A DNA stretch of 39,665 nucleotides from a virus, in IMG/VR virus record IMGVR_UViG_3300031862_000365, positions 1 to 39,665 of that record; one strand, 5' to 3'. The notes under the pieces are model-generated. The model saw only the letters and a program-made list of their open reading frames with translations, did not search any database and was not told where the DNA came from. Both the position numbers and the translations under genes were made by a program. Positions 1,381-36,001 of this stretch are shown here, piece after piece; position 1 is the first letter of the stretch; every line of letters starts with the position of its first letter.

Positions 1381-1827
1381 ATGAGGAAGGAAGGAAAACG
1401 GACTGGGAAAACCGATCTGGCACTGGGCCAGACTGGGCCGGCTGCAAGGGCGTATGACCCTGACAGGAAAAAGCAAGCGCGGTTTCTGGCGGCCTACGCC
1501 CTGTGCGGTTCGATCCGCAAGGCCGCGCGAGCCGCCGGTGTCAGTCGCAATACGCACAGGCAGCAATGGATGGCATTCGACCCTGCCTATCCGGTCAGGT
1601 TCGCTGAAGCCCAGGAAGATGCGGACGAGGAGTTGCTCGACCAGGCCCGGAAGCGCGCGATGAAAAGCAGCGATCGCCTGCTCATGTTTTTGATCATGGC
1701 TCGGCACCCTGAGTACCGGCCGCACCAGCGGATCGACGTGGCCCGCGCCCTGCCCCTGGAGGGCGATGTGGATGGTCAGGGGGAGCAGGCTCTAAAGGCG
1801 TTCGATGCGCGACACCGAAAGACCTGA
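1381..1827 (+). CDS. terS: Putative terminase small subunit
   Basis: The 148-aa product lies directly before the large terminase gene and overlaps it by 23 nt. Small terminase subunits recognise the phage DNA and deliver it to the large subunit. A basic N-terminal arm is followed by a helix-turn-helix-like region at residues about 34-62 (FLAAYALCGSIRKAAR then AAGVSRNTHRQQW), the usual arrangement in this family. A charged helical segment (residues 70-95) could be the oligomerisation part. The start ATG has no strong ribosome site (only GGCGG about 15 nt upstream), so the true start is a little uncertain. It is the first rightward gene after the divergent control region. Confidence 0.75.
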   Translation: MRKEGKRTGKTDLALGQTGPAARAYDPDRKKQARFLAAYALCGSIRKAARAAGVSRNTHRQQWMAFDPAYPVRFAEAQEDADEELLDQARKRAMKSSDRLLMFLIMARHPEYRPHQRIDVARALPLEGDVDGQGEQALKAFDARHRKT

Positions 1828-3679
1828 TCTGCCGGGCTTGGCGGCCAAGTGGCATCAGGCCGTCCCGCGCGACCCGCAAGCCAACGTCGAGTGGCGGCGC
1901 GATCTTTGGGGATTGTGCGACACAAGCGCGGCGATCCGCGCGGCGGCGGGCCGGCGCTCCCGCGAGGACATCCTGTATTGGACCAACGCGTTTGTTTGGT
2001 TGTTCGACCCAGACGCGCCCGCAACCATTCCCTTTGCCACGTGGCCGTACCAGGATGTGGCGATCCGCGAGATGGTGCAGGCCGTGATCGAGGGCTATGA
2101 CCTGTTGGTGGAGAAAAGCCGCGACATGGGCGCGTCGTGGATGGTCTTGATCGTCTACCTCTGGCTGTGGCTCTGGCATGGGGACATGGCGCTGCTGGCC
2201 ATCAGCCGGATCGAGGACCTGGTAGACCGACCGGGGGACCCCGACACCTTGTTTTGGAAGTTCCGCTTTGCCCGCGACCATTTGCCGACCTGGATGATCC
2301 CGTCTTGCCGCGATGCGAGTTTGCATGCCGAGAACCTTAGCAACGGTTCGGTCTTTGACGGTCGCGCCACGTCCCAGGATGCTGCCCGGGCTGGCCGGCG
2401 TAAGTCGCTGCTCATTGACGAACACGCCTCTATCGAGCACGCGCAGGCGGTTGAGACCGCGACGGCCGACGTCGCCAAGTGCAGAATCCGAATCTCGACG
2501 CCCAAGGGGATGAACACCTTCGGCAAGTTGCGGCACTCGGGCAAGGTCAAGGTCCTGACGCTGCACTGGTCGAGCCATCCCATCAAAGCCCGGGGACTCT
2601 ATACGAGCGAGGGTGGGAAGGTCAAGTTGCTCGATGCCTACCGCGGCACCGTCAAGACCTTCCGCATCAATTCCGACAGTCAGGAGATCGAGCAGGAGAC
2701 CCACCAGTATCCCGATGCCTACCCGTTCATGCTCGATGGCCGCACCCGGTCCCCCTGGTACGACGGCGAGTGCGTGCGGCGCGGGAGCGAGATCGAGGTT
2801 GCTCAAGAACTCGACATCGACTACCTGCGTTCCGGCCACCTGTGGTACGACGCCGCGGTCGTGCAACGGCTCAAGCGCACGACCGTTCGCAAGCCCGAGC
2901 AGTGCGGCGACTTGGCCTTCACGCTCACGCCGGACGACCGGATCGAGGTGCGGCAGTTTCTGGAGGCCCACGTGGGCATGCTCCGGCTCTGGTGCATGCT
3001 CGACCCGGATGGCAGGCCCGCCCAAGCCGCGAACTATGCCGTGGGATGTGACATCGCGGAGGGCACCGGGGCGAGCAACAGCGTGGCTAGCGTGTACGAC
3101 TGCACGGGCGGCCGGAAGGTGGCGGAACTCGTCACCCCCCACCAGACTCCCGAAGCGTTCGCGCGGACCGTCGTGGCGCTGTGCCAGTGGTTCGGCGGCG
3201 GCACGGGGGAACCGTTTTTGATGTGGGAACAGAACGGCCCCGGCCTCATCTTCGGCAAGGAGATCCAGCGACTGGGTTATGGCTACGTGTACTACCAGCG
3301 ACACGAGGAGGCGGTCCACCGCGACCGCCATGAAATGCGTGTGGCCGGTTGGCCGGCAACCCGGGTCAACAAGCAACTCCTGCACGGCGACTACCGCCGA
3401 GACCTCAGCCTGGGCCAGTTCCTGAACCCCAGCGCCCAAGCCGTCGCGGAACTGCTGGAATACATCGTCGACCAAGACGGCTCACCGTTGCATGAGAAAT
3501 TGGCCGACGAACCATCAGGCGCGAGGCTCGCCCACGGGGACCGTGTAGTGGCGGATGCCTTGGTCAACCTGGCGCGGAAGGAACAGTCGCACTACCGCGC
3601 CCCGGAGCGGCCGATCCCTGCAAGCAGTTACTTTGGACGCCGACAGGTTGCCCTTGCCAAGCAGCGCCGGGAGGACTGA
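1805..3679 (+). CDS. terL: Terminase large subunit (ATPase and nuclease)
   Basis: This 624-aa protein is the DNA-packaging motor. A Walker A-like motif EKSRDMGASWM is at residues 103-113 (the deviant form seen in many TerL proteins). Walker B LLIDEH is at 202-207 with the catalytic glutamate, and the coupling motif STPKG is at 231-235. The RNase H-like nuclease domain begins with Asp416 in YAVGCDIAEG, and the late acidic motif HGDRVVADAL lies near residue 578. Length is typical for large terminases with both domains intact. It is placed between terS and portal, as expected. The start overlaps terS; the ribosome site is weak (GGAG about 20 nt upstream), so expression may depend on coupling. 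Confidence 0.95.
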   Translation: MRDTERPDLPGLAAKWHQAVPRDPQANVEWRRDLWGLCDTSAAIRAAAGRRSREDILYWTNAFVWLFDPDAPATIPFATWPYQDVAIREMVQAVIEGYDLLVEKSRDMGASWMVLIVYLWLWLWHGDMALLAISRIEDLVDRPGDPDTLFWKFRFARDHLPTWMIPSCRDASLHAENLSNGSVFDGRATSQDAARAGRRKSLLIDEHASIEHAQAVETATADVAKCRIRISTPKGMNTFGKLRHSGKVKVLTLHWSSHPIKARGLYTSEGGKVKLLDAYRGTVKTFRINSDSQEIEQETHQYPDAYPFMLDGRTRSPWYDGECVRRGSEIEVAQELDIDYLRSGHLWYDAAVVQRLKRTTVRKPEQCGDLAFTLTPDDRIEVRQFLEAHVGMLRLWCMLDPDGRPAQAANYAVGCDIAEGTGASNSVASVYDCTGGRKVAELVTPHQTPEAFARTVVALCQWFGGGTGEPFLMWEQNGPGLIFGKEIQRLGYGYVYYQRHEEAVHRDRHEMRVAGWPATRVNKQLLHGDYRRDLSLGQFLNPSAQAVAELLEYIVDQDGSPLHEKLADEPSGARLAHGDRVVADALVNLARKEQSHYRAPERPIPASSYFGRRQVALAKQRRED

Positions 3680-3682
3680 CCA

Positions 3683-3925
3683 GTGATTAGTTTCCCGCCT
3701 CCTCTCTTCGAGGAACTGGAGTCTTGGACGCCAGTTCTCATAGAGGTGCCCGGACCTGTACCCGGATCACCCGATCTGTGGCGGGCGGGGTGCATTTGCA
3801 TACGGAAGGTTCTCCGCATCGAAAACCGATTGAGTCCGACACTGCTTGCCGAACCGGTCTTCCCGAAGGAGCCACCAAATGGCCGTTGCTCAAGCGAACC
3901 AACGGGCCGAGAAGACAGCCGTTGA
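3683..3925 (+). CDS. Possible small protein (80 aa), GTG start
   Basis: A GTG four bases after the terL stop follows GGGAGGA at good spacing and opens an 80-codon frame. The product starts VISFPPPLFEEL and is rich in Pro, Glu and Arg, with no recognised domain. Its last 47 bases overlap the start of the portal gene. GC at third codon positions is only moderate, lower than in the neighbours, so coding status is uncertain. If it is not a gene, the 199 bases between terL and portal would be unusually long for this compact operon. Confidence 0.4.
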   Translation: MISFPPPLFEELESWTPVLIEVPGPVPGSPDLWRAGCICIRKVLRIENRLSPTLLAEPVFPKEPPNGRCSSEPTGREDSR

Positions 3926-5702
3926 ACGTCTCCGCCGCGGTCTCAGGATGTGCCAGACCAAACTGGAGAAGTTTCGGACGGAACGGGTGCGGATGTTGGA
4001 GGCGTTCGTGGGCGCCCACTACGGTGCTGTCACCAGCCAACGGTTGCCCATGAACGTCTTGGCCGGGGCGGTGCTGAGTCTCGTACCGAACCTCATCAGC
4101 GGTCGACCACGGGCGTACTGCGACGGCAAGACCCCGGAGGCGCGACAACGTGCGGCCCTTTTGGCGCATGACCTCGACCAATGGGCAAAAGACGATGGGT
4201 TTGAGGAGGTCCTGCGGCTGGTTGTCTTGGATGCCATGTTTGGGCCTGGCCTGTTCTGGGTCGGGCTCGGTCAAGGCGGGGAACGGTTGTCGGTCGGGGA
4301 CCTGTTTGGCGACGCGGCATCCGAGGGTGAAATCGACACCGGCAAGGTCGTGGCCGAACGGGTCAGTCTCGACGACTACGTGATCGACCCCCTGGCCAAA
4401 CGGCGCTCTGCGGCACAGTTCGAGGGCCACATTGCGGAACTGGACTTCGGCATGATTCAAGATTCGCCCCTGTACGCGAACAAGGAGTACCTGCGACCCG
4501 ATGGTGGCCCCGAACTACTGGATCGCACAGACCGGGCCGAGTACCTGTCGCGCGAGAAAACCATGATCCGGGAGAACCTTGTCGACGTGGTGCGGGTCTA
4601 CGAGTTGTACTTGCCGCGCGGCTTCGACGGCCGGGCCGGCAAGCCGCTCTTGCTGACGCTGCCCTTGGAGGACCAGGGGGACCTTCCCCTGCGGATTGAA
4701 CCGTACGATGGGCCGGAGGGGGGGCCTTACGTGGAGTTGACTTACCACGAGGTCCCGGACAACGCCTTCGGCCTGGCCCCAGCCATGGTCTACTACGATC
4801 TGCACGCAGAGATCAACCGATACGCCCGGAAGATGTTCCGGCACATCGACCGGGAGAAGATTTTGCTCTTGTACGAGCGGGCCGTGGCCGGCGAGGACGC
4901 CGCTGAAATCCGGGGCGCCAGCGACGGGGACGTGCTGGGGGTCAAGGATGTCAAGGCGTTCCAGGAAGTCAGGATGGGTGGTGCTGGCACCGAGAGGACG
5001 GCCATGCTGAATGCCCTCCTGGACTTTTTCTCGCAGCAGGCCGGCAACAGCGACCTCATCGCGGGCACCGACGAGACCGCGCCCACCCTTGGCCAGACGC
5101 AGATTCTGGTGGGTAACACCCAGGTCCGCATCGAGGCGATGCGCCAGGCCGTCAAACGGGCGGCCAAGGCGGTCTACGAGAAAGTCGCCTTTTACCGCTA
5201 TCACGATCCGCTGCACGACGTTACTCTCTTGCACCGCCCGGAAGGTTTTGACGACGACATTCGCGTAGATTGGAATCCTGAAGAACGCGCCGAGGCGGAG
5301 TTCGGCGATTACGACGTCGACATCGAGGCCCAGAGTTTCCGACCTCCAACGCCGGAGCAGGCGGCCGAGAAACTGATCAACGCCGCTCGCCTGGGCGTCG
5401 AGTTCGGCGTGCAGTTGGACGGCGAAGCGTTGATCCGCCGCGTGGCGCAACTGACGAACGTGGACGAGATCAACGACCTTCTGACCGGTGCTACCCCGAT
5501 GCCCGCAGAACCGGCAAGTCTCGGCACTGGATTGCCAGCACCACCGCGGCCGGCCGTGATGGGGCGTGTGGTCAATCGTGGCGCGAGGATGCTGGCCGCG
5601 CCGGAACCGATGCGCGCAGAAGGACGCCATGGTGAAAGGTCGCCAACTCAAGGCGCTGGACCGGGGGCCGCCACCGAGGCGACTACCCCCGGCCGTACTT
5701 AG
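3879..5702 (+). CDS. Portal protein
   Basis: The 607-aa product forms the dodecameric ring at the capsid vertex through which DNA enters and leaves. Support comes from position (after terL, before scaffold and capsid), size and character: helical N-terminus, a beta-rich middle (VVRVYELYLPRG, YVELTYHEVPDN) and a long helical region with DLIAGTDETAPTLGQTQ and QVRIEAMRQAVKRAAKAVYEK, which resembles portal stem and crown regions of podovirus-type portals. The start is set at MAVAQANQR because GAAGGAG lies 7 nt upstream; an ATG 11 codons earlier lacks a site. The C-terminal 60 residues are Pro/Ala/Gly-rich. The last 74 bases overlap the sigma-factor gene in another frame. Confidence 0.9.
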   Translation: MAVAQANQRAEKTAVERLRRGLRMCQTKLEKFRTERVRMLEAFVGAHYGAVTSQRLPMNVLAGAVLSLVPNLISGRPRAYCDGKTPEARQRAALLAHDLDQWAKDDGFEEVLRLVVLDAMFGPGLFWVGLGQGGERLSVGDLFGDAASEGEIDTGKVVAERVSLDDYVIDPLAKRRSAAQFEGHIAELDFGMIQDSPLYANKEYLRPDGGPELLDRTDRAEYLSREKTMIRENLVDVVRVYELYLPRGFDGRAGKPLLLTLPLEDQGDLPLRIEPYDGPEGGPYVELTYHEVPDNAFGLAPAMVYYDLHAEINRYARKMFRHIDREKILLLYERAVAGEDAAEIRGASDGDVLGVKDVKAFQEVRMGGAGTERTAMLNALLDFFSQQAGNSDLIAGTDETAPTLGQTQILVGNTQVRIEAMRQAVKRAAKAVYEKVAFYRYHDPLHDVTLLHRPEGFDDDIRVDWNPEERAEAEFGDYDVDIEAQSFRPPTPEQAAEKLINAARLGVEFGVQLDGEALIRRVAQLTNVDEINDLLTGATPMPAEPASLGTGLPAPPRPAVMGRVVNRGARMLAAPEPMRAEGRHGERSPTQGAGPGAATEATTPGRT

Positions 5703-6420
5703 GCTGACGTGGCGCACGTACTGGCGCTCAGGCCGGGAGGACTTGAAGGCCCGCAATGCGTTGGCGATGCACTATCGGTATCTGGTGATCGACTCTGCCC
5801 GCATCCGGGCTGCGTCTTATCCGAGAAGCCTAACGAGTCAAGACCTCGAAACTTTCGGGGACGAGGGACTCTTGATAGCGATCAAAAAATATGATCCGAA
5901 CCGGCGAGTGGCGTTCACGAGCTACGCCGAGCATCGGATTCGTGGAGCAATTCAGGATGGCATGAGACGCTGGGACCACGTTAGACGGAGGTCGCGGCAA
6001 ATCGAAAGAATGCATAAAAGGACCAGGTCCCAACTGACCCAAACCTTGGGGCGTTGGCCAACGGACGATGAAATGGCCGATGCCCTCGGCAGGGGACCTG
6101 TCCGTTATCGCGTCGAGCGGGATGCCGTGCTTGCGGCAGAGCTGCAGCCATTGGCCGTCGCCGTGTACGGCCAGCAGGATGCCGGCCCGAGACCCGATAG
6201 CGTAATGGAAGGACGCGACACTTGGCAACGCCTCATGCGGGGATGTAGCCGCGTCGAAAGAATCATCCTGACCTGTTACTATTCTCACGGCCTGACCATG
6301 AAGTCGATCGCCAACTTACTGGAGCTGTCGGAGTCGCGTGTCTCCCAGGTGCATGGCCACCTGCTCGCGCGGCTGCGCGAAACCTGGAAAGGAACGGAGC
6401 TATGCCCCTCCCCGCCTTAA
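5629..6420 (+). CDS. Phage-encoded sigma factor, sigma70/FliA-like
   Basis: The 263-aa protein has the layout of a group 3 (FliA/WhiG-type) sigma factor. Region 2 spans about residues 38-118, with NALAMHYRYLV, then DLETFGDEGLLIAIKKYDPN and FTSYAEHRIRGAIQD, the core-binding and -10 recognition helices. A region 3-like segment (LTQTLGRWPTDDEMADALG) is at 136-154. Region 4 at about 200-252 ends in a helix-turn-helix, LTMKSIANLLELSESRVSQVH, for -35 recognition. GAAGGA lies 5 nt before the chosen ATG. It would bind host RNA polymerase core and direct it to phage promoters. Its place inside the packaging/head operon, overlapping the portal gene, is unusual. No FliA-type target promoter could be identified with confidence here. 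Confidence 0.92.
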   Translation: MVKGRQLKALDRGPPPRRLPPAVLRLTWRTYWRSGREDLKARNALAMHYRYLVIDSARIRAASYPRSLTSQDLETFGDEGLLIAIKKYDPNRRVAFTSYAEHRIRGAIQDGMRRWDHVRRRSRQIERMHKRTRSQLTQTLGRWPTDDEMADALGRGPVRYRVERDAVLAAELQPLAVAVYGQQDAGPRPDSVMEGRDTWQRLMRGCSRVERIILTCYYSHGLTMKSIANLLELSESRVSQVHGHLLARLRETWKGTELCPSPP

Positions 6421-7128: not shown

Positions 7129-7191
7129 GTTCCCACTAGCGCCCTACCCTGCGCCAATGCCGGCGCGGGAAGCCCGCGAAAGGAAACGAAC

Positions 7192-8181
7192 ATGGTGCTT
7201 TCCCTAATCTTGGTGGTTGTTTTCGCCGTCCTGGCGCTGGCGACGTTTGCCGAGGAAGGCGGGCCGGCGCCTGCTGCTGCCGCAGGACCGGATGCCGGAG
7301 CCCCCGGCCAGGATGCAGCACGCGATACGGCTCTGGCGAACATCGACGCCGCTATCCAACGTACCGGCTTGCCCTCGACGTTGCCTGAGTCGGGCGAGGC
7401 CACAGCCGGCGGGGAACAACCAACCGGCGAGCAGCAACCAAAACCAGCCGAGGCCGCAGCGGACAAGACCGGCGCGCTGGGGATCGACCCGCGCCTGATG
7501 CACGCGGCGGAACGTCTGGGTTGGACAGAGGAACAGATCGCCGAACAGTTGAAGATGTTCGGGAAAGAGCCCGTCGAGAAGGCCCTGGCCCTCCACGCGG
7601 ATGCCCTGGACAAGCACGCCGCCGCGCTTGGTCAGGATGGACGCAAGAAGGAAGACGGCGGGGAGGAACCTGCCGAGGAACCCGCCGAAACCGGTTTCAA
7701 GTTCGCTGACGAAGTCTGGGACGCCTACGGCGGCGAGAATGGGGATCTGCTCGGTGCGATCGAGAGCGGGACGAAAAATCTGGTGAAGCCCCTGTACGAG
7801 CGCCAGGCGGCCGCCGACCTGCTCCAAATGCGCATGTTGGCGCGCCAAATCATCAGAGACGCCGGCGACGCGGCCAAGGGAGTAGACCGAACGGTCCTCC
7901 TGGACAAGGCGGAGACCCTGGCGGCTGGTTATGCGCAGAGGGGCCAAGTCGTCGACCCTGAGAAGTGCCTCGAGGAAGCGCTCGCAAACCTGACCCAAGG
8001 AAAAGCAGCGGAAGCCGCACGACGGGACCTCGCGCAGAAGGTGGGCCAGCGGGCCCGCCAAGTCAGCGGCGCCCCGACGGGCCGAACGCCCCTGCCGGCT
8101 TCAGGGCCGGAGGCGCACAAGAGACGCGCGATCGCGGCCATCGAAAAGAAGATGCAGGAACATGGGATCCGCACCGCGTAA
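7192..8181 (+). CDS. Putative scaffolding protein with hydrophobic N-terminus
   Basis: The 329-aa protein sits directly before the capsid gene, the standard place for the scaffold that templates procapsid assembly and is then removed. It is acidic, Ala/Glu/Gly/Pro-rich, with helical central and C-terminal parts (RLGWTEEQIAEQLKMFG, DLLQMRMLARQII) and a basic C-terminal tail (HKRRAIAAIEKKMQEHG), a common capsid-binding feature of scaffolds. Oddly, residues 2-18 (VLSLILVVVFAVLALAT) are strongly hydrophobic, followed by FAEEGG, like a signal peptide or membrane anchor. AAAGGAAACG precedes the ATG, and no better internal start is seen. The scaffold role is inferred from position and composition. 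Confidence 0.7.
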   Translation: MVLSLILVVVFAVLALATFAEEGGPAPAAAAGPDAGAPGQDAARDTALANIDAAIQRTGLPSTLPESGEATAGGEQPTGEQQPKPAEAAADKTGALGIDPRLMHAAERLGWTEEQIAEQLKMFGKEPVEKALALHADALDKHAAALGQDGRKKEDGGEEPAEEPAETGFKFADEVWDAYGGENGDLLGAIESGTKNLVKPLYERQAAADLLQMRMLARQIIRDAGDAAKGVDRTVLLDKAETLAAGYAQRGQVVDPEKCLEEALANLTQGKAAEAARRDLAQKVGQRARQVSGAPTGRTPLPASGPEAHKRRAIAAIEKKMQEHGIRTA

Positions 8182-8215
8182 TAGGTTCCGCACAGACCGG
8201 AAGGAGTAGCGTTTT

Positions 8216-9385
8216 ATGTTCACCATGCTGTTTGTCCTCGCGGCAGCCATGATCGCGGCCGCGATCTTCGCCGGCGAAGTGACGGGCGGGGGGCCGTGGG
8301 TTGCCGGCGATCTGACGAACGAACAACTCTCCGATCTCTGGAACACGACGATGCGGGAGGTCGGCAGGGGCGACATGGACTACGCCCTGAAACACCAGAC
8401 GTACCTGTTCATGGATACGGTGCTCGCGAGTGACAAGGTCGAGGTCACGGGGACGGCCATCCAGGGCCGCATATCGCTCGACGACGCCGGCAACGCCAGG
8501 TTCATCGACCCCTACGAGGCTGCCGACCCGATCGTGAAGTCTACGACGTCGCCCTTCGCGATCCCCTGGCGTTACTTGGAAGTCCACTCGTCCATCGAGC
8601 GCCACGAGATCCTCGAAAACATGGGGGCCGCGCGGCTGTACGACCTGGCCAAACTGCGCAAGGCCCAAGCGATTGTTGACCTCTGTAACCTCGCCGAAGA
8701 ATCCTGGTTCTCCACGACCGCGCCGGAGCTGCCCACGACGAAGGCCCTGTGGGGCCTCGCCACGTGGGCGGGGAAGTACGAGGACACCGTCGACGGGGCC
8801 GGGTTCTACGGCGGTCTCCCCGCAGCCGGCTGGTCCGATCTGGCCGGCATCGCGCCTTGCACCACCGGCAGCGGCACGGCGGCGATCACCGGCGGTCACC
8901 CGCGTTGGCGCAGCTGGTGCGGCGGGTACAAGGGGTTCAATGCCCACTGGATCGACCGGATGCTCGAATGCCACGTCCGCGTGAAGTTCAAGGGGCCACT
9001 GCTGGCGACCCAGATTACGGAGGTCCCCTTCGACCGATTCCGCGTGTACACCTCGATCACCGCGTACCTCCAGGCGCTCAGTTACCAGCGCAAGCGCGGC
9101 GACGACAACGGGGCCGAACTCGCGGTCCTCTCGAACGGCACTCTGACGATCATGGGGACCCCGATTCTGCAAACGGACGTGCTGGACGGCGACACCGACG
9201 ACCCGTTCTACTTCGTCAATCGCGCCCTGTTCGCGCCGGTGGTTCTGGCCGGCGACTACCTGCGCGAGGATGTGGGTGTCCGTGATCGGCTCCAGCACGA
9301 CGTCATGACAGACTTCACGAACCTGACGGTCAACATGAAGTGCCGCAACCGCCGGCAAGCAGTCGCAGTTGTAAATAAGTACTAG
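8216..9385 (+). CDS. Major capsid protein
   Basis: This 389-aa product is the best candidate for the coat protein: it follows the scaffold gene, has GAAGGAG about 10 nt before its ATG, and has the mixed alpha/beta character of an HK97-type fold, e.g. PWRYLEVHSSIERHEILEN (helix-strand) and a C-terminal segment FTNLTVNMKCRNRRQAVAVVNKY. Residues 4-18 (MLFVLAAAMIAAAIF) are hydrophobic and followed by AGEVTGGGP, resembling a cleavable signal peptide. The scaffold protein has a similar start. This is unexpected for a capsid subunit. A GC-rich hairpin follows the gene. Confidence 0.8.
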   Translation: MFTMLFVLAAAMIAAAIFAGEVTGGGPWVAGDLTNEQLSDLWNTTMREVGRGDMDYALKHQTYLFMDTVLASDKVEVTGTAIQGRISLDDAGNARFIDPYEAADPIVKSTTSPFAIPWRYLEVHSSIERHEILENMGAARLYDLAKLRKAQAIVDLCNLAEESWFSTTAPELPTTKALWGLATWAGKYEDTVDGAGFYGGLPAAGWSDLAGIAPCTTGSGTAAITGGHPRWRSWCGGYKGFNAHWIDRMLECHVRVKFKGPLLATQITEVPFDRFRVYTSITAYLQALSYQRKRGDDNGAELAVLSNGTLTIMGTPILQTDVLDGDTDDPFYFVNRALFAPVVLAGDYLREDVGVRDRLQHDVMTDFTNLTVNMKCRNRRQAVAVVNKY

Positions 9386-15928: not shown

Positions 15929-18900
15929 ATGGGCGAGATTGCAGACATCCTGGATCAGACGGCGACACCCACGGGGGATATCGGGCGCATCCTGGCGGCG
16001 ACCGAAAGGCCGGGTATCGGCGAGATCGGTGACATCTTGGATGCGACGCAACGGCCCGCACCGTCCTTGGGTGAACTCGCCACGAGACCGCCACGCAGCG
16101 CCTACGAGGTCGGCCAAAGCCAACTCCAAACGATGTACCCGCCTGCGCCCCTACCGCGATACCTGACTCTGCCGCCGACCGAGATCGGCAACATCCTGGA
16201 AGCCACGGAAGCGCCGCCGGCACCACAGTTCGGCACGACTGTTCCCGAGCGCATCGTTGGGACAGCGAGGGAAGTGTGGACCGGCTTTGAAGATTTGGCA
16301 CAGAGCGGGTTGGTAGGACTCCTGCGATTGAGTCGCCAGAAGGACGTGGCCGACAGGTGGCAACAACATTTCGAGATTGAAAACCTCAAGAGGGTTCGCG
16401 GACTGCCTGATTTCCCGACCGTAACGAGCGTTCTTCATCAGGCCGGATACCTCGGCGGGGGAATGCTGGCGGGACCTTTGACCATTCCGACGTTTGCGCT
16501 CTCAGGCTTCAGCCGGGGCTACGATGATGCCGCGGCGCATGGGGCCAACGAGAACGCCCGTTGGGAATCGGGATTGCTGAACGCCGGCATCGATGTCGCT
16601 ACGCTCGGCCTCATCCGTCCGATTGCGGCCTTCAGCGGTCCGGCAAAGAACGCGATCGCGACGGTCCTCAAGAACGCGACGGGCGAGGCCCTTCAGTGGG
16701 GCGTGATCGGCGCCATCATGCGTTTCGGCGAGGATGCCGTGGCCCGCATCTTGTACGATCAGAACCGTGAAGCGTGGGATGGCATCCTTGAATCGGCCGG
16801 CGGCGGGGGGATCGCCGGGGCCGTGGTCGGTGCTTGCCGGGCCTTCTTTCACCTGCCGCCCGCTCCGGTCGGTGCTGGGGAGCGGTCAGCAGTCAGCCCA
16901 GTGGAGGTCGACCGCATCGCCGCCGCCCTGGCCCGGTTGTCACCGGAGACCCGCGCCCGCATCGCCGCCATGCCGGAACCCACTCGGACCAGATTCAGGA
17001 ACGAACAGGAACTCTTGGCGGCCCTCTCGGCCGAGAACCTCAGCGCCGAGAGCCGGACGGTGCGGCAACAGGTCCTGGACGAGGCCCGGAAGATGGCCGA
17101 GGCCCCCAGGATGCCCCAGGAGCCGCCCGTCGAACCTCCAAAAACCGCGCCGGAACCCGTAACGGCCCCTAACGTGCCCCCGGAAGCCGCGCCAGAAGCC
17201 CCAGGATTGCGCCCAGCCGTCGCGCAGGGTCCGGTTAGGGTAGAACCTCAGCCGGTGGCCGCGAAGGCCGTAGAGGCTCCGGCGGTGCCGCCTGCCCCGG
17301 TTCCTGCGCCGACCCCGACCGAAGTTCCGCCAGCCGTGCCCGAGAAGGCAACGAAGCGACTCACCAGGAGCCCGAGCCTGAAGGAGGCCAAGGCCGCGGC
17401 CAATGAGTTCGGTCTGATGCCAGCCAAGGTCCAACGGTTCTTGCAGTTCCTGCGCAGGCCGGGCATGACCGTCGAACAGGCGGCAGATCTGACGAGCGTC
17501 CGGCCGGAAGTCGCCGCGGTGTTGGCTGAGCGGTTCAAGCCGGAAGGCGGTAAGACGTATAAGGAGATCGTCAAGGAGGGCGAGAAGCGGCTGACGGAAG
17601 CCGTCGCGGGAGTGCCGAAAGTCGGGAAGCGCCTGAAGAAGGCAGTCGCCATGCCCCCGCCGGCGGAAACTGCGCCAAGTGCGCCAGAAGTGCGCCAGGT
17701 GCGACAACCGGCCGCCGCTGGCAAGGGATTTGCTGTTGGGCAAGAAGTCACGAGCATCGAACACCCGGAGAGGGGCACGGGCACGGTCACGCGCGTTGCG
17801 ACGGCAACCCCGGCGTCGCCGGATCTGTATCAGGTGACGTGGCGGGACAAGAAGAAAGGCTGGTTGCGGTCGGTCGAGATGCGGCAAGCGCCCGCGCCAG
17901 AGGGCAAACAGCCGTGGGAGAAGTTCTACGCAATTTGGCGTCATCCCAGCGACGGCAAATTCCGCATCGTAGACAAACGCAATCCACCTGACTTCCCGTG
18001 GGAGAAGGCGCGGCCGTTCGACACGCCAGAACAGGCCATCGCCTCTGTAGAAGCAAATTGGCAACACTGGGAAAAGACCCGCGCTCAGAGTGTACAGGAA
18101 CAGGCGCGCGAAGCAGAACGTGATCGGCGATTATCAAAACGTCTTGCCAAGGGCGCTGTTGGAACCTATGTGCGGGAACACGACCTCGACCTGGCAGAGA
18201 ATGCAGGAGAAGTTGAAGCAGGCGAGGGCATAGGACGGGTGGTGTGGGAAGACCCCGGCAATACGATAGAGACGAACGAACCTTCCGCCGTCGGTCTCCC
18301 AGGGAGCAAAGATGTCCGCGCCATTCATGTTACGAGCGACGAGGACTACTGGATACGACGTTTAGCCGAAGACTATGGACGTGACAGGAAGAACGCGAAG
18401 CGCCTCACGATTCGCCTTGCGCAAGGCGACATTCTGGCCGACGACGTTCAGTACATGACCGACCCCGATACTGGGCTCAAGGCCGATTCTGCCATTCTCC
18501 TAACGACTCGCAAGACGCTTCGGCGTGGTGTAGATTTTGTCGTGGGCGATGAACCTTGGGCCGACGCCGCGCTTGCGAAACTCGAACGGCCGGGCGGGGA
18601 ACGGGGCGGGACGGCCGCCGTCTCGCCTGTAACGCAGCCTGCGAAGGCAGTTGAGCCGGGGGAACCGGGTTACGTGACGCCGGGGTTGGCGCACGAAGTG
18701 GAACTGATTCGCCGCTGGAAGGGGGCCGGAACCGTCGGTCAACAGGCAGCGCGCCTTGCCCGTGGTCTCCGCGCCGCTGGCGTCACATTCCAGCGAGAGA
18801 ACGCGGGGACGGGTTCGGTGTATTTCCGGGTCGAACTGCCAGAGGGCGAGTCGCTTTCGCTTCGTGTCGCGGACCATGCACAACCTGAGCATGGGGGCGT

Positions 18901-21900
18901 CCGATGGTCGCCCGCGCTGGGAATGGCTACGCGCAAGGGCGCTGCGGATTTCTCGGCAGACCCGGAGACTGGACAGACGTGGCGCGACCTCTTGAAAACT
19001 GCGATTGAAAGAAATGCCCCCGCAAGCCTGGCATCACGTGCGCCCGAGAGCGCGGTGAACATAGAAGGTGTGCCCCGTGGGGCAGAACCTTCATCAGGCG
19101 CGCGTCAAGTGGAATCCGCCGCCCCTGCTGCCGTGCCAGTCGCCCCTGCCGCAGAGGGCAAGCAGCCGTGGGAGATGACCTACGCCGAATACCGCGCCTG
19201 GGCCGCCGAAAATCATCCCAACGAGGCCATACGGCGGTCCGCGCGCTCGCCGAAGTCTCTTGAAAGCGGAACGTCGGCGGTCGCCGATGTCGCTGGCCAA
19301 TGGAACGAGGCTAAACTTCAAGAGAAACTGCGGGCCGACGCCGCGCTTGCGGGCGAGGCGGCACCAACCAAGAGACTCCAGCGGAAGGTGCCCCAGGAAC
19401 CTGTGGCCGCCGAAACTGGGGGCGTTCCCGCCGAACAAGCCTTGATTCCTTTACAGAGACCGCCCACTCTGACGGATTGGCGGACGGCAAAACCGGGCAC
19501 TATCGTGCGAACCGATTTCGCCGACTACGAGGTTCTTCGGAGGCGGATCCGCCCGAAGCAGGAAGCACAAAGGTTGGCAAGGGAGCTGGGTGGCGAAGTT
19601 TGGATTGACGGGCCAGATAACTGGGCAGTCGTTAGAAAAATCCCCAAGGAAGGCCAAGTCGTCGCGCCTGCCCCCACACCAACGCGCGCTGAGCCTGCCC
19701 GCGACCTTCTCGGCAAGCCCGTGTTCGAGAGCAGAACGGGCGAGCAGCGCGCCTTGGGCTTCGAGGAACCGCCCGTCGAGGGTCACCCGGAGGCCCCACG
19801 AGCCGCAGTGGCCGAACCTGACGAATACGGTCTGACTGCCTACGATTACGAACAGGCCGAACGCATCCTCAGCGGCGGCAAGTGGAAACCGAGACCGGCT
19901 GAAACCATTGGGGTGAGGGCGTGGCTGGCAGGAAAAGCGAAACCGTCCGGCCATGAAGTTCTCGGAGCTGGTCTGTCGCCGGCCGATGTTGCCGATGCTG
20001 CGGGGGCTTGGACTACGGCCGAAAAGACCGCAGGGCCCAAGGACCGGGAACTCCGGGCCTGGAACGTGTCTCGGACCACGATGGAGGGCGAGACGGGCGC
20101 CACGCTCCTTGACGACATCGAGGTGGCCAAGGAGCGGGCGAAGAAAAGCATGGGCGGGGGTGCCACACCCGTAGGTCTCGGCCCCGTCTCCGATGTGGTG
20201 GACCTGGGATACCTGTACATCAAGAAGGGCGTGCGCGACTTCGCCACCTGGGCGAAACAGATGGTGACCGACCTGGGCCAGCGCGTCCGGGCTTACTTGC
20301 CCAAGGTCTGGGCCCGGGCGATGCGGTTCTGGCGCGAGGAAACCGGCCAGACGTTGCCCCGCGAACCCGGCGAAGAATCGGCAGGGGAACCGACCCCCGA
20401 AGAAGTCGAGGCGGAACTTCAGGCCGAGGCCGAAGCGGCGCTTGAGAGACAAGGGGAACTGGTCGAACCGCCGCTGGCTGAGAAACCGATGGGAGAACCC
20501 TACGCCGACGCCGCCAGCGCCGGGAAGCGCGTATTGAACCTTCTGCGCAGTTTCAAGGCGGCCGACCTTCCGAAGATGGTAGATCGGTTGAACGCAGCCG
20601 GCGAACGCGACTTGAAGACCGTGCCTGAAGTCGCGAAGGCGTTGGCCGACCTGCGCGAAGCGACGAAGTACAGGAAGTCCGTCGAGGCCGAGGCCAAACC
20701 TCTCATCGCCGAAGCGCCGACGCGGGCCTACACGCCGCTCCTGGACTGGCTGGGGGAGAAGATCGACGCCCGGGCCGGGGCCGACATGGCGACGGAGATC
20801 AAGGAGGCGCTGGCCGGCCGGCCTTACCTGCGGAAGTTCTTCGACTTCACCGGCAAGAGTCGGCCGCGGCCCATCGACGGCGTGATGAGCGAGGCGATGG
20901 AAAGCGCGGACAGCGGTTTCAAAGGCGACGACACCAGCGCCTTCCTCGACCAGATGGTGAAAGAGGCTGACGCCCTGGAAGCTCAGCGCGCCATCGGTGG
21001 CGACGTCGGACAACAAGTCAGGGCGATGGCGGAAGGCAGCCGGGACCCAGGCGAGGTTCGGGCACTCGCCGAAAGGGTTGACCGGGCTGTGGCCCGCGAG
21101 AACGACATGCAGAGGGCGGTCGTCGAGAGCCTCGAACCTCACATCATGGTTCGGCGGGTCGAGAACATCGCCCGGTTGGAAGCGCAGCTGCACGAGGCCA
21201 AAGCCGCAATCGAGACGGAGACGGCCAAGGCCAGGCAGGAAGAGCGGGCCGCCTCAGAAGCCAAATTGCAACAGGTACTTGCGGCGACCCATGAACAAAT
21301 CCGGATCTTTCAGGTCCACGCGAAGATGACCGCAGACGCCCGGATCATGGGTGCTCGGGCGCGCGCGGCCGCGTTCGAGAAGTTGCGGAAGGAGTTCAAG
21401 GCGGCGGTACAAGCCTTGCCGCCCGCCGTCCGCGGCAAGTTGTGGCGGTTCTCCGAAGGCATCGAGCGCCCGGAGCAACTGACGCTTGGCATCGACCGCG
21501 CGCAGCGACTCCTTGGCGAGGAGTTGAAGCGCGGTGCTTACGAGACCGCCCTGAGAACGGCCAAGGTCATTCACAATCATCGGATGGAGTTCGACCCGCA
21601 GGCCGATGCCGAGGCGTTGGTTGAAGCGGAAAAGGTGCTGGCTGGCGGCGCGACGGCGTTCAAGGGCGTCAGTGTCGAGGAGATGCGGGAGATCTCGAAC
21701 CGGCTTCTTGAGACCTGGCACATCCACCAGAACGCCAAGACCCTCTACGCGCTTGAGGGCATGGCGAATGCGGAAGATGCCGCCCGATCGGTGCTGAAAG
21801 ACTTGGCGGATTGGAAACCTGCGGCTGGCGTAGAGGAGCGCGGCCCGGCCCCGGGGACTCCGCACAGGTCCATGCCGAACCGCGTGGTAGACCTCAACAG

Positions 21901-24184
21901 TTACCCGGACTCCTTGATCGAAGGGCATCTCGGGCCGGAAGACGGCGTACTTGAGCGCGTCCTTGTCAGCAACGTCGGAACGAACGTTGCCCATCACTTT
22001 TCGGCGGACTGGTACGCAATCTGGGACCCGATGAACGAAGCGTGCAAGGTAGCCACGGGCGGCACCCTCAAGAAGGAGGCGGCGTTTCGCTGGTTCTCGG
22101 CGCCCCTGACATTCGAGATAGGCGGCGTGAAGGTCAGGGCGGAGCGCGAACAGTGGATGACCCTGCGCGCGGTATTGAAGGATGCCGACGCGACGGGGAA
22201 GTGGCTCAAGAACACGGAATCCGACAACCCCGAACCGTCGACGGCCGTATGGTCCAACCGGCGCGGCAAAGTCGCCTTGGCCTTCAACAACATGGCGGAG
22301 GTTCAAGCGTTCAGTGATGCTTTCGATGCAGCCGAGCCCAAGGCCGCCGCCTACATCGACTCCTGCCTTGCCGCGACGAATGACCCGGCTCGATTTGAGA
22401 AGAGTAATGCCACGCACTTCAGACTGTTCGGGACGTACCTTGAGAAAGTGCCCGGAACCCGGATGGCCACGGAGTATAACGTGGCGGCCGAGAAACAGCG
22501 GGCCGTGCCCGACTTTTCCACGGCGTCTCCGGCCGACATCCTCAAGCACCTGCGTCAGCACTTCGCCCGGTTGCCCGGCGGCCGCGGCATCAGCATGGTC
22601 ATCGGTCGGTTCAACAATGTGCTCCTGCGCGAGGCATGGGAAGATGCCGCATTCAACACCTACGCCCCTGGATTACGGGACGGATGGACGTTGCTTCAGC
22701 AGATGGTGGAACACGGGGCGGGCGAAAAGGAGATCACGCTGAAGGCGTACCTGGGCGAGCGGGTCGGCCAGGAAGTTCCTCGGACTCTCGATAGTCACCT
22801 CAAGTCCATCGCGAAGTATTATGGACTCTCCTATCAGGCGAGACTGGAAGAAGCCGACATTGACCCGGTTGCTCGCCGCTTGCTTTACAATGCGATGGGG
22901 GCGGCGGTTGCGTTGAAGTGGACACCGATTGCCAACCAGATTCCGGCGGTCCTGTTGCCCTGCGCCGACACCAAACCGATGGCTCTCCGAGACCTCTTGG
23001 CGGGAATCATCGAGTTCGCTTCGAGGGCCGGCTGGGCTTGGCAGAAACTGAAACGGTTGCGGTCCGACATCAGATTCAGGGCGGAACTCACGAACCCCGA
23101 AGATTTCATTGCGGCTTCGGAGTCGGCCCCGCGCGGTTACGGTCCCAACCGTGTATGGCGAACGATTAAGAGGGCCGTGCGCTACTCGGGCCGGGGCATG
23201 ATCCGCGTGGATCAGGCCAACCGCATCCTGCATTACTTGGCTGCCCGTCATCAACTGATTCGAGAAGGCAAGTTGTCGGGGGAAGCGTTGGAGCAAAAGG
23301 CCGCCGACATGGCCGCCAGGTGGATGTACCGCGTGGACGCCCCGCTGCATCCGGCCTATGCAACGCCTGTCGGTCGTGCCGCCAGGACGAGCACGCTCAT
23401 TGCCGCTGTCACTCCATTTACGAAAGGGAAACTCGCCAACTTCCAGGTAGTCCTCCGTGCCATCAACGACTATGCCCGCGACGGGGACGCGAAGAAACTG
23501 GCCTACAAACTGAGCATTGCAGGAATCGTGGCGGCGGGCTTCACGGCCATAGGGGTCGCGGGGGCGTACTTCGCTGGCCGCAAGGTCGGCGAAGGTCTCG
23601 GCGGCGTCCCTGGCGACTTCGTAGAGAACGCCCTGGGGAACGTCTACGGCGCCACGGAAGCGATCCGTCTCATCCGGTCGAAGTCCCCTTACGGAGTTCA
23701 GGTATTTTCGAGTCCGCCGGTGGCGGCGGCGGAACGGGTGGGGCGGGGCCTCGTCGGCTTGAGGGTCGCCATCGAGAAGGGCGGCACGGATAAGGCCCTC
23801 GCCGCGGCCTCGGAGATTCTGCGGGGTTCTGCGGCGCTCGCGGGGATCCCGACCGATCAAGCCGTCAACCTGATCCGTTTCGGACGTCGCATCGGCGCCC
23901 CTGGCCATCAACTGGCCCAGTGGCCCGGTCTCAGGATGACCCCGGCCGTGCGCCTCATGGCCGACATCCTGGGGCCGCGCATCCCCAGTCCGCCGGAACC
24001 AAAACGTCTGATGAAAGGCGCCAAGCCGAGGAAACGCTTGCGGCGAAGGCCGGAACGCGGCGATGTGGCGATGTTCCGCCGGCTGACTTATCAGGAGGCC
24101 CAGCGGGTCTATCGGTTGGCGGATGCCGACGAGAAACGCCTCTGGGGAAGCATCCTTGCGAGCAAGGTCAGGAGTGGTCGATAG
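15929..24184 (+). CDS. Giant phage polyvalent protein (2751 aa)
   Basis: One uninterrupted frame of 8.3 kb. From the N-terminus: four short repeats of a G/T-E/D-I-x-x-I-L-x-x-T-x-x-P motif (2-14, 16-28, 31-43, 84-96); a Gly/Ala-rich hydrophobic region (about 170-310); a proline-rich linker (391-472); an SH3-like segment (about 603-654); two GKQPWE modules (about 659 and 1078); a YxFRVE…SLRVADH segment (about 920-998); a helical DLGYLYIKKGVRDFATWAK segment (about 1425); a long coiled coil (about 1746-1830); and a C-terminal region (about 2290-2560) resembling LPD38-type polyvalent domains, with a hydrophobic helix. Proteins of this kind in phages and conjugative elements are thought to enter the cell with the DNA. 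The ribosome site is weak (GGAAA). Confidence 0.85.
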   Translation: MGEIADILDQTATPTGDIGRILAATERPGIGEIGDILDATQRPAPSLGELATRPPRSAYEVGQSQLQTMYPPAPLPRYLTLPPTEIGNILEATEAPPAPQFGTTVPERIVGTAREVWTGFEDLAQSGLVGLLRLSRQKDVADRWQQHFEIENLKRVRGLPDFPTVTSVLHQAGYLGGGMLAGPLTIPTFALSGFSRGYDDAAAHGANENARWESGLLNAGIDVATLGLIRPIAAFSGPAKNAIATVLKNATGEALQWGVIGAIMRFGEDAVARILYDQNREAWDGILESAGGGGIAGAVVGACRAFFHLPPAPVGAGERSAVSPVEVDRIAAALARLSPETRARIAAMPEPTRTRFRNEQELLAALSAENLSAESRTVRQQVLDEARKMAEAPRMPQEPPVEPPKTAPEPVTAPNVPPEAAPEAPGLRPAVAQGPVRVEPQPVAAKAVEAPAVPPAPVPAPTPTEVPPAVPEKATKRLTRSPSLKEAKAAANEFGLMPAKVQRFLQFLRRPGMTVEQAADLTSVRPEVAAVLAERFKPEGGKTYKEIVKEGEKRLTEAVAGVPKVGKRLKKAVAMPPPAETAPSAPEVRQVRQPAAAGKGFAVGQEVTSIEHPERGTGTVTRVATATPASPDLYQVTWRDKKKGWLRSVEMRQAPAPEGKQPWEKFYAIWRHPSDGKFRIVDKRNPPDFPWEKARPFDTPEQAIASVEANWQHWEKTRAQSVQEQAREAERDRRLSKRLAKGAVGTYVREHDLDLAENAGEVEAGEGIGRVVWEDPGNTIETNEPSAVGLPGSKDVRAIHVTSDEDYWIRRLAEDYGRDRKNAKRLTIRLAQGDILADDVQYMTDPDTGLKADSAILLTTRKTLRRGVDFVVGDEPWADAALAKLERPGGERGGTAAVSPVTQPAKAVEPGEPGYVTPGLAHEVELIRRWKGAGTVGQQAARLARGLRAAGVTFQRENAGTGSVYFRVELPEGESLSLRVADHAQPEHGGVRWSPALGMATRKGAADFSADPETGQTWRDLLKTAIERNAPASLASRAPESAVNIEGVPRGAEPSSGARQVESAAPAAVPVAPAAEGKQPWEMTYAEYRAWAAENHPNEAIRRSARSPKSLESGTSAVADVAGQWNEAKLQEKLRADAALAGEAAPTKRLQRKVPQEPVAAETGGVPAEQALIPLQRPPTLTDWRTAKPGTIVRTDFADYEVLRRRIRPKQEAQRLARELGGEVWIDGPDNWAVVRKIPKEGQVVAPAPTPTRAEPARDLLGKPVFESRTGEQRALGFEEPPVEGHPEAPRAAVAEPDEYGLTAYDYEQAERILSGGKWKPRPAETIGVRAWLAGKAKPSGHEVLGAGLSPADVADAAGAWTTAEKTAGPKDRELRAWNVSRTTMEGETGATLLDDIEVAKERAKKSMGGGATPVGLGPVSDVVDLGYLYIKKGVRDFATWAKQMVTDLGQRVRAYLPKVWARAMRFWREETGQTLPREPGEESAGEPTPEEVEAELQAEAEAALERQGELVEPPLAEKPMGEPYADAASAGKRVLNLLRSFKAADLPKMVDRLNAAGERDLKTVPEVAKALADLREATKYRKSVEAEAKPLIAEAPTRAYTPLLDWLGEKIDARAGADMATEIKEALAGRPYLRKFFDFTGKSRPRPIDGVMSEAMESADSGFKGDDTSAFLDQMVKEADALEAQRAIGGDVGQQVRAMAEGSRDPGEVRALAERVDRAVARENDMQRAVVESLEPHIMVRRVENIARLEAQLHEAKAAIETETAKARQEERAASEAKLQQVLAATHEQIRIFQVHAKMTADARIMGARARAAAFEKLRKEFKAAVQALPPAVRGKLWRFSEGIERPEQLTLGIDRAQRLLGEELKRGAYETALRTAKVIHNHRMEFDPQADAEALVEAEKVLAGGATAFKGVSVEEMREISNRLLETWHIHQNAKTLYALEGMANAEDAARSVLKDLADWKPAAGVEERGPAPGTPHRSMPNRVVDLNSYPDSLIEGHLGPEDGVLERVLVSNVGTNVAHHFSADWYAIWDPMNEACKVATGGTLKKEAAFRWFSAPLTFEIGGVKVRAEREQWMTLRAVLKDADATGKWLKNTESDNPEPSTAVWSNRRGKVALAFNNMAEVQAFSDAFDAAEPKAAAYIDSCLAATNDPARFEKSNATHFRLFGTYLEKVPGTRMATEYNVAAEKQRAVPDFSTASPADILKHLRQHFARLPGGRGISMVIGRFNNVLLREAWEDAAFNTYAPGLRDGWTLLQQMVEHGAGEKEITLKAYLGERVGQEVPRTLDSHLKSIAKYYGLSYQARLEEADIDPVARRLLYNAMGAAVALKWTPIANQIPAVLLPCADTKPMALRDLLAGIIEFASRAGWAWQKLKRLRSDIRFRAELTNPEDFIAASESAPRGYGPNRVWRTIKRAVRYSGRGMIRVDQANRILHYLAARHQLIREGKLSGEALEQKAADMAARWMYRVDAPLHPAYATPVGRAARTSTLIAAVTPFTKGKLANFQVVLRAINDYARDGDAKKLAYKLSIAGIVAAGFTAIGVAGAYFAGRKVGEGLGGVPGDFVENALGNVYGATEAIRLIRSKSPYGVQVFSSPPVAAAERVGRGLVGLRVAIEKGGTDKALAAASEILRGSAALAGIPTDQAVNLIRFGRRIGAPGHQLAQWPGLRMTPAVRLMADILGPRIPSPPEPKRLMKGAKPRKRLRRRPERGDVAMFRRLTYQEAQRVYRLADADEKRLWGSILASKVRSGR

Positions 24185-34714: not shown

Positions 34715-36001
34715 ATGACACAGACACAGACGGAGTACGACGGCGCGCCCTTGCCGGAGGAACCGCCTCCGGACTACGAGGATCAGAAGCATCGCTGTGC
34801 CAAGCGACCGGAGTTGGCCCTGGCACCCCTGGCGCCTGAACCCAGCGGCATGATGCAGGTCGCCGCGACGCGCGCGGCCCAGGAGGTGCAGGCCGCTATG
34901 GTGATCGCCAAGAAGTTCCCGCGCGACGAGACCGTGGCCTTCCAGCGCATCATCCGGGCCTGCCACAGGAAGTCGCTCGCCGAAGAGGCGGTCTACGCCT
35001 ATCCGCGCGGGAACACGACGGTCTCCGGGCCGAGTATCCGCATGGCCGAGGTCCTCGCGCTGAACTGGGGCAACATCCATTTCGGCATCCACGAGTTGGA
35101 ACGGCGCGAAGGCGAATCCTCCGTGCTGGCCTTCGCCTGGGACCTGGAGACGAACACCCGCCAGAGCAAGGTGTTTACGGTACCCCACGAGCGCCGCGTC
35201 GGCAAGGGCAGCCGCTTCCGCGTCGATCAACTGACCGATCCGCGGGACATCTATGAGATGACCGCCAACCAGGGGGCCCGCCGCCTGCGGGCGTGCATCC
35301 TGGGGGTGATCCCCGGCGATGTGGTCGAGGCGGCCGTGGTCGAGTGCGAGAAAACGATGGCCGGGAACAACGCGGAACCGCTCATCGACCGCGCCCGGAA
35401 GATGCTGGTGGCCTTCGAGGGGTTCGGCGTCACCAAGGACCAAATCGAAGGACGACTTGGACACAAGGTCGAGGTCCTAGCCGAGGTCGAACTGGTCGGC
35501 CTGCGGAAGGTCTACGCGGCGATCCAGGACAACTTCGCCGCCAAGGAGGACTTTTTCCCCGCCACCGGGCCGGCGGAAGGGAAGGTCGGCGGCAAGACGC
35601 CCGCGGAGCCGTTCTTCGGCGGTCTGACGAAGCCCAACGGCCAAGGCGAGTCGGCGACCAAGAGGGCGGGGCCCGTGCCGACCCAGACGGCCCCGGCGGC
35701 GACCCGACCGCCGTCCCCCGCCGACCCCGCCTCTTCCCCCCTACCCGGCGACGGCCAATACGATCGGCTGATGGCGGAGTGTAAGGCGATCTGTTGGGCT
35801 GCGCGGCAGAGCAATGCGAAAAAGGCCAAGGAGTTCTTGGCCCATCAGATGGCGACCCATGGTATCGGCGTCGGCGCCGCGGTCGCCGACGACCTGGCCA
35901 TGGTCCAGGCCATGCGGAAGACCTTGGGCGGCTTGGCGGAGAACCTGGGGCTGGACTGGGCATGCCACATGCCCGATGGGCCGAGTCCCGCGAAACTGTG
36001 A
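34715..36001 (+). CDS. Putative single-strand annealing recombinase
   Basis: AAGGAGAA precedes the ATG. The conserved central region (about 57-215) contains FQRIIRACHRKSLAEEAVYAY, then TVSGPSIRMAEVLALNWGNI, AWDLETNTRQSKVFTVPH and LTDPRDIYEMTANQGARRLR with GVIPGDVVEAA. I recall this pattern from phage recombination loci, where it accompanies exonucleases as a RecT/Erf-like annealing protein; the exact family name is not certain. A proline-rich linker (about 325-350) leads to a C-terminal helical domain. The companion PD-(D/E)XK nuclease upstream supports a Red-like pair. Confidence 0.7.
   Translation: MTQTQTEYDGAPLPEEPPPDYEDQKHRCAKRPELALAPLAPEPSGMMQVAATRAAQEVQAAMVIAKKFPRDETVAFQRIIRACHRKSLAEEAVYAYPRGNTTVSGPSIRMAEVLALNWGNIHFGIHELERREGESSVLAFAWDLETNTRQSKVFTVPHERRVGKGSRFRVDQLTDPRDIYEMTANQGARRLRACILGVIPGDVVEAAVVECEKTMAGNNAEPLIDRARKMLVAFEGFGVTKDQIEGRLGHKVEVLAEVELVGLRKVYAAIQDNFAAKEDFFPATGPAEGKVGGKTPAEPFFGGLTKPNGQGESATKRAGPVPTQTAPAATRPPSPADPASSPLPGDGQYDRLMAECKAICWAARQSNAKKAKEFLAHQMATHGIGVGAAVADDLAMVQAMRKTLGGLAENLGLDWACHMPDGPSPAKL

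Follow-up and report, generated by a model that had tools for sequence, protein, structure and literature searches.

The window, i.e. the whole stretch of DNA that was analysed, is IMG/VR virus record IMGVR_UViG_3300031862_000365, 39,665 bases from an uncultivated tailed phage. Its head module runs from the terminase large subunit through the portal, a sigma-factor-like open reading frame (ORF) and small ORFs to a protein in scaffold position and the capsid protein. The order terminase–portal–scaffold–capsid, a criterion for HK97-fold capsids, is found both here and in the closest relative detected, locus L147. The features that matter for this study are:

1805–3679, plus strand: terminase large subunit, used as query for finding relatives
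3846–5702, plus strand: portal protein, with a weak match to the SU10 portal
7180–7184, plus strand: AAGGA, Shine–Dalgarno (SD)-like motif for the scaffold gene, spaced 7 nt from ATG 7192
7192–8181, plus strand: scaffold-position protein of 329 aa (P0001), directly upstream of the capsid gene, acidic and helix-rich
7192–7251, plus strand: hydrophobic leader of the putative scaffold, residues 1–20 (MVLSLILVVVFAVLALATFA), followed by acidic EEGG; conserved in L147
8202–8206, plus strand: AGGAG, SD sequence for the capsid gene, spaced 9 nt from ATG 8216
8216–9385, plus strand: major capsid protein of 389 aa (P0002), predicted HK97 fold (AF2, Foldseek, VIA, NCBIfam)
8216–8272, plus strand: hydrophobic leader of the capsid protein, residues 1–19 (MFTMLFVLAAAMIAAAIFA), a low-confidence AF2 helix at 3–18; conserved in L147
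8273–8314, plus strand: linker of low confidence that joins the leader to the capsid core, residues 20–33 (AF2 and family alignment)
8315–9382, plus strand: capsid core common to the whole family, where homologues approximately begin

Several other genes can be noted in passing. The sigma-factor-like frame (5566–6420) overlaps the end of the portal gene, resembles FliA/WhiG (E 2.1e-39 to NCBIfam TIGR02479, short of the cut-off) and has a relative (35%) in the corresponding position of L147. Behind the head genes, 15929–24184 is a single ORF of 2751 aa with one marginal hydrophobic stretch and no Pfam or NCBIfam match, whose product is possibly a giant ejected virion protein. The gene at 34715–36001, downstream of a PD-(D/E)XK exonuclease-like ORF, encodes a protein of unknown function that belongs to PHROG 3657 (E 2e-98) and has strong relatives among phages infecting many different hosts. 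Across the window, many long ORFs overlap on both strands, probably owing to high G+C, and most of the listed ORFs cannot be genes.

Capsid and scaffold proteins and their N-termini

By structure prediction, the product of 8216–9385 is a major capsid protein of the HK97 fold. AF2 run with 59 family sequences gave a model with pLDDT 85.7 and pTM 0.82 (pLDDT 32 from the single sequence), for which Foldseek returned cyanophage A-1(L) as best match (7f38, E 4.3e-11); VIA aligned 304 residues to the same structure with Z 20.4 and an rmsd of 7.5. The matches listed by Foldseek and VIA comprise phage capsids, GTA, PICI and P4 shells, encapsulins and an engineered T4-derived cage, with SU10 and HK97 further down, all of which we take to be HK97-type shells. 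The capsid protein has no Pfam and no significant PHROG assignment, and it falls outside the NCBIfam equivalog NF033394 (capsid_maj_Podo), as its matches (E 3.6e-15; 56 and 54 bits) lie below the curated cut-off of 80. Fold and whole core are nevertheless those of podovirus/cyanophage-type capsids (NF033394; PDB 7f38 of A-1(L), 6j3q of Mic1, 7z46/7z48 of SU10), to which the window capsid adds an N-terminal extension with a transmembrane (TM)-like leader. This leader is without counterpart in the two best structural matches, which align only from model residues 19 and 22 onwards; AF2 models it as a helix at residues 3–18 with a pLDDT of about 50–60 and the following part, up to about residue 34, as a linker of low confidence. 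For the product of 7192–8181, which is without a database match, we infer a scaffold function from its place just before the capsid gene, which recurs in the family loci, and from its acidic, helix-prone composition (pI 5.13 without the leader). ORFs of this type were recovered in the family loci by an iterative profile.

The initial annotation had described hydrophobic starts on both proteins, and these are present: each protein opens with a segment that is TM-like and spans about 18 residues. The putative scaffold begins with MVLSLILVVVFAVLALATFAEEGG at ATG 7192, the capsid protein with MFTMLFVLAAAMIAAAIFAGEVTGGG, most likely at ATG 8216, i.e. three residues before the MLF start given earlier, because this ATG is preceded by AGGAG at 9 nt, SD matches are missing from all later in-frame starts, and the F-T pair near the start aligns with MEPFT of L147. 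Both genes have the good ribosome sites that had been claimed for them. Within the first 40 residues, the peak hydropathy (Kyte–Doolittle, 15 residues) reaches 3.34 in the scaffold and 2.73 in the capsid protein, values equalled in 0 of 20000 and 17 of 20000 composition shuffles, respectively; among ORFs of at least 150 aa with ATG and SD in family loci L037–L192, only 13 of 562 reach a peak of at least 2.5. Length and hydropathy are TM-like (19-residue means 2.94 for scaffold and 2.46 for capsid), and the other two reading frames of the leader DNA are not hydrophobic. In a scan of 23 window frames (two of them held stops and, like three mis-set frames of L147, are not used here), TM-like segments occurred only in scaffold, capsid, two lysis-region frames and the one marginal stretch of the 2751-aa protein. 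The hydrophobic core of each leader is followed by an acidic flank (EE, GE, DE). Within one genome the scaffold and capsid leaders resemble each other to a degree matched by a fraction of only 0.0028 of composition shuffles for the window and 0.0072 for L147. A common origin by recent DNA duplication was considered and rejected, the nucleotide similarity of the two leaders not exceeding that of shuffles (0.51).

Distribution of the leaders in the family

L147 (contig IMGVR_UViG_3300032020_000356) is 67% identical to the window in the terminase, 48% in the portal, 42% over 257 aa in the scaffold and 58% over 366 aa in the capsid, and a scan with the capsid pair, aimed at closer relatives, yielded just this contig a second time (as L254). 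It carries both leaders, MEFLLLFVTVAFALALFAEEAGG on the scaffold and MEPFTLLAIAALLGLALIAVSGADELG on the capsid protein, with AGGAG 6 nt upstream of each ATG; the two segments thus exist as hydrophobic leaders and are replicated in one independent genome. Between window and L147, the 22 codons of the scaffold leader include 6 identical, 6 synonymous and 10 nonsynonymous ones, with the hydrophobic class kept at 21 of 22 positions; in the capsid leader, 7 of 24 codons are identical, 5 synonymous and 12 nonsynonymous, and the class is kept at all 24. In addition, the L147 capsid gene has no in-frame ATG, GTG or TTG at residues 2 to 39, and alternative in-frame starts are also absent from the scaffold genes at residues 9 to 59 (window) and 11 to 110 (L147). 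As the codons have diverged with the hydrophobic class kept, and as the L147 capsid has no alternative start, the leader segments are most likely translated and maintained for their hydrophobicity.

These data also bear on whether the true starts might lie behind the hydrophobic segments. All 57 other aligned family capsids do begin there and the window capsid has a GTG at residue 22, but this GTG lacks an SD sequence, and the missing alternative starts and the hydrophobicity kept despite codon divergence also speak against such starts. Mis-starting was therefore rejected on the basis of the L147 capsid and both scaffolds, and we give an annotation artefact hardly any credence, in agreement with the earlier view that the genes are not mis-started.

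For the wider family, loci were fetched by terminase alignments from viral and genome contigs, and capsid profiles recognized the capsid in 87 of them; genome contigs with a full-length terminase match include bins of Planctomycetota, other PVC bacteria, Balneolia and Deltaproteobacteria. The capsid alignment consists of 59 rows, i.e. the window and 58 of the 87 capsid loci, after omission of near-duplicates, fragments and long-branch rows. Ahead of the invariant Asp40, the window has 39 residues and L147 has 41, while the other 57 rows have 8 to 22 (median 9), and none of these 57 shows a hydrophobic start (highest value 1.52), so that the statement that capsid subunits normally lack such a segment is true in this family. 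Capsids of loci outside the alignment are likewise leaderless wherever their start was assignable, that of L180 being taken from the sequence and L122 not being counted. In a tree of 83 capsids (seven short rows dropped, with L127 put back, and five duplicates removed), window and L147 are joined with support 100/100 on a weakly supported backbone. Given this grouping and the absence of the leader from 57 of 57 other capsids, sequence comparison indicates that the capsid leader is a derived trait acquired in the window–L147 clade, and it is known from this one clade and these two sequences. The homologue comparison envisaged in the initial annotation as a refutation thus cuts both ways: the closest homologue keeps the segment and distant ones begin after it, a pattern that points to a lineage-specific addition rather than an error.

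Leaders on the scaffold are distributed differently. Among 99 scaffold ORFs, strong ones were found in L127 (MINPLLLVPFLCALLGLVLRSEEDP) and in L147 (twice, as L147 and L254), and a short, weak one in L075/L172 (MFITLLTMLLAAEGE). The genes concerned lie at 9748–10800 in L127 and at 8643–9542 in L075; the capsids of both loci are without leader and placed apart in the capsid tree, and L172 ends before any recognized capsid gene. On this weakly supported tree backbone, scaffold leaders have likely arisen more than once.

Further searches for relatives returned little. No match was obtained with tblastn of window capsid, scaffold and portal in a phage collection, or in 8-mer scans of viral contigs (capsid, scaffold, TerL) and genome contigs (capsid). 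The 29 loci with relatives of the 34715–36001 protein contained no matching capsid and one marginal portal match (E 3.1e-4). A survey of 392 planctomycete genomes found capsid relatives in two and the scaffold profile in none, the scaffold search being one without positive control.

Possible functions of the leaders

An obvious question is whether the leaders are signal peptides, as the label ‘signal-peptide-like’ in the initial annotation suggested. That label holds for the hydrophobic core, which corresponds to the h-region of a classical Sec signal peptide, but not for the charged n-region, as there is no Lys or Arg before the core in the scaffold and capsid leaders of window and L147 or in the scaffold leaders of L127 and L075. 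Since proteins of these loci that look like normal export substrates often start with MKK, MKR or MRK, the leaders by their sequence are not classical signal peptides. Moreover, export would take the capsid protein out of the cytoplasm, where DNA is packaged, which argues against it.

The reading that we prefer, tentatively and at somewhat less than even chances, is one that the initial annotation had offered beside removal at maturation: while the procapsid is assembled, the leaders would anchor its proteins at the cytoplasmic membrane, the scaffold first and the capsid protein after it. The greasy N-terminus would direct first the scaffold and then the capsid protein to this membrane during synthesis, probably by SRP/YidC, and procapsid assembly would begin and become concentrated there; the N-termini of the head proteins themselves would thus do what a portal–YidC interaction does in T4. 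As the scaffold leader also occurs without a capsid leader, the scaffold anchor may have come first or be the more basic one, to which the window–L147 clade would later have added the capsid anchor. Proheads would finally be released from the membrane by cleavage of the leaders or by their being pulled out. We prefer anchoring because length and hydropathy of the leaders fit, scaffold leaders exist without capsid leaders, and T4 and SPN3US provide a precedent. Several points count against it. According to the positive-inside rule, an acidic flank makes a cytoplasmic location of the rest of the protein less favourable. The N-terminal arm in HK97-fold procapsids is usually directed towards the lumen, so that the leader of a closed shell would be out of reach of an outside membrane. 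An approximate residue insertion scale gave mixed results overall, with unfavourable sums for the scaffold windows of L147 (+1.57), L127 (+1.19) and L075 (+7.05). No membrane chaperone was recognized, the scanned head-module proteins of the window included no match to a prohead protease family (diverged proteases can be missed), and the capsid leader is confined to one clade. A more far-reaching version, in which the capsid protein is itself membrane-inserted, shell and scaffold are anchored co-translationally, and the procapsid either grows as a patch on the cytoplasmic membrane or encloses a lipid patch or vesicle as it grows, seems doubtful to us; if true, the lineage would possess an HK97-fold head with lumenal N-termini that are bound to lipid, at least for a time.

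The main rival to anchoring is hydrophobic docking within the procapsid, where the leaders of scaffold and capsid protein would face the lumen and pair with each other (or scaffold leaders would bundle), serving as an attachment device that is never in a membrane. The co-occurrence of leaders on two neighbouring, co-assembling proteins in window and L147, their mutual likeness beyond composition shuffles and the lumenal position of the N-terminal arm in known procapsids all speak for such pairing, but hydrophobicity of this kind without a polar face is unusual for soluble docking helices, and L127 and L075 combine scaffold leaders with leaderless capsids. The latter finding, in loci that stand apart in the tree, fits anchoring better than a zipper of scaffold and capsid leaders, even though the L075 leader is weak, and we consider docking a serious but rather unlikely explanation.

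If signal peptidase or a maturation protease cut off the leader, the virion capsid protein would start near residues 20–33 like its homologues. Such removal could account for the succession of leader, low-confidence linker and a core beginning where homologues begin, and some leaders have small residues at a possible signal-peptidase cut (TFA/EE, IFA/GE, SGA/DE). We nonetheless judge it improbable as the whole explanation, with the missing Lys/Arg n-region, the misplacement of the capsid outside the cytoplasm by true export and the lack of a matched protease family in the scanned window proteins all weighing against it; cleavage as such can be combined with either anchoring or docking. Trypsin-like proteases, several with signal-like N-termini, were seen near terminase or portal in 14 of the loci scanned (15 matches), among them L115 (4160–4927), L119 (2611–3357), L081 (1080–1982) and L134 (1583–2515). 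They could possibly be membrane-anchored head proteases, and their presence in some wider relatives would suit removal, but they are absent from the leader-bearing loci, and among the matches listed, no window or L147 ORF is a relative of the trypsin-like queries (the L081 query not being covered, and that of L134 not to its end). Finally, the nascent hydrophobic N-terminus could act at the level of translation only, by slowing it or bringing the mRNA to the membrane, without a role in assembly. The similar length of the two leaders and their location at the extreme N-terminus would allow this. Nothing specific speaks against it, but it would demand an extra step stripping a greasy tail from every capsid subunit, and we consider it very unlikely.

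Membrane-linked head assembly in known phages

HK97 delta-domains and similar capsid propeptides are N-terminal extensions ahead of the core that are used only in assembly, act as scaffold and are cut off by a phage protease. The window capsid is likewise extended ahead of its core, but it comes with a separate scaffold, and its extension is a short hydrophobic segment. The major coat protein pVIII of filamentous phages contains a TM helix, and in f1 it also has a leader that is cleaved off (PMC3185693). The window capsid resembles it as a major coat protein with a TM-like segment; pVIII has, however, an unrelated fold and belongs to ssDNA phages extruded through the membrane, in contrast to the predicted icosahedral HK97-fold shell of the window.

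Proheads of T4 and SPN3US can, according to the literature, be made on the inner membrane, which is the assembly site proposed here. Membrane prohead assembly has been shown for few tailed phages, and T4 head assembly begins at the inner membrane through interaction of the portal (gp20) with YidC (PMC9026906). T4 thus uses its portal with YidC plus a prohead protease, whereas in the window the candidate anchors sit on scaffold and capsid and no such protease was found. A literature search at the level of titles and abstract openings yielded no report of a TM-like leader on the capsid protein of a tailed phage.

For annotation, the findings are a warning that hydrophobic starts of capsid genes can be real. 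With regard to phage biology, the retention of both leaders in a relative as distant as L147 points to the cell membrane as a possible site of head assembly in these phages. As the anchor seems to be placed on scaffold and capsid, with leaderless sister lineages available for comparison, the purpose of membrane-linked head assembly would become directly testable in this family.
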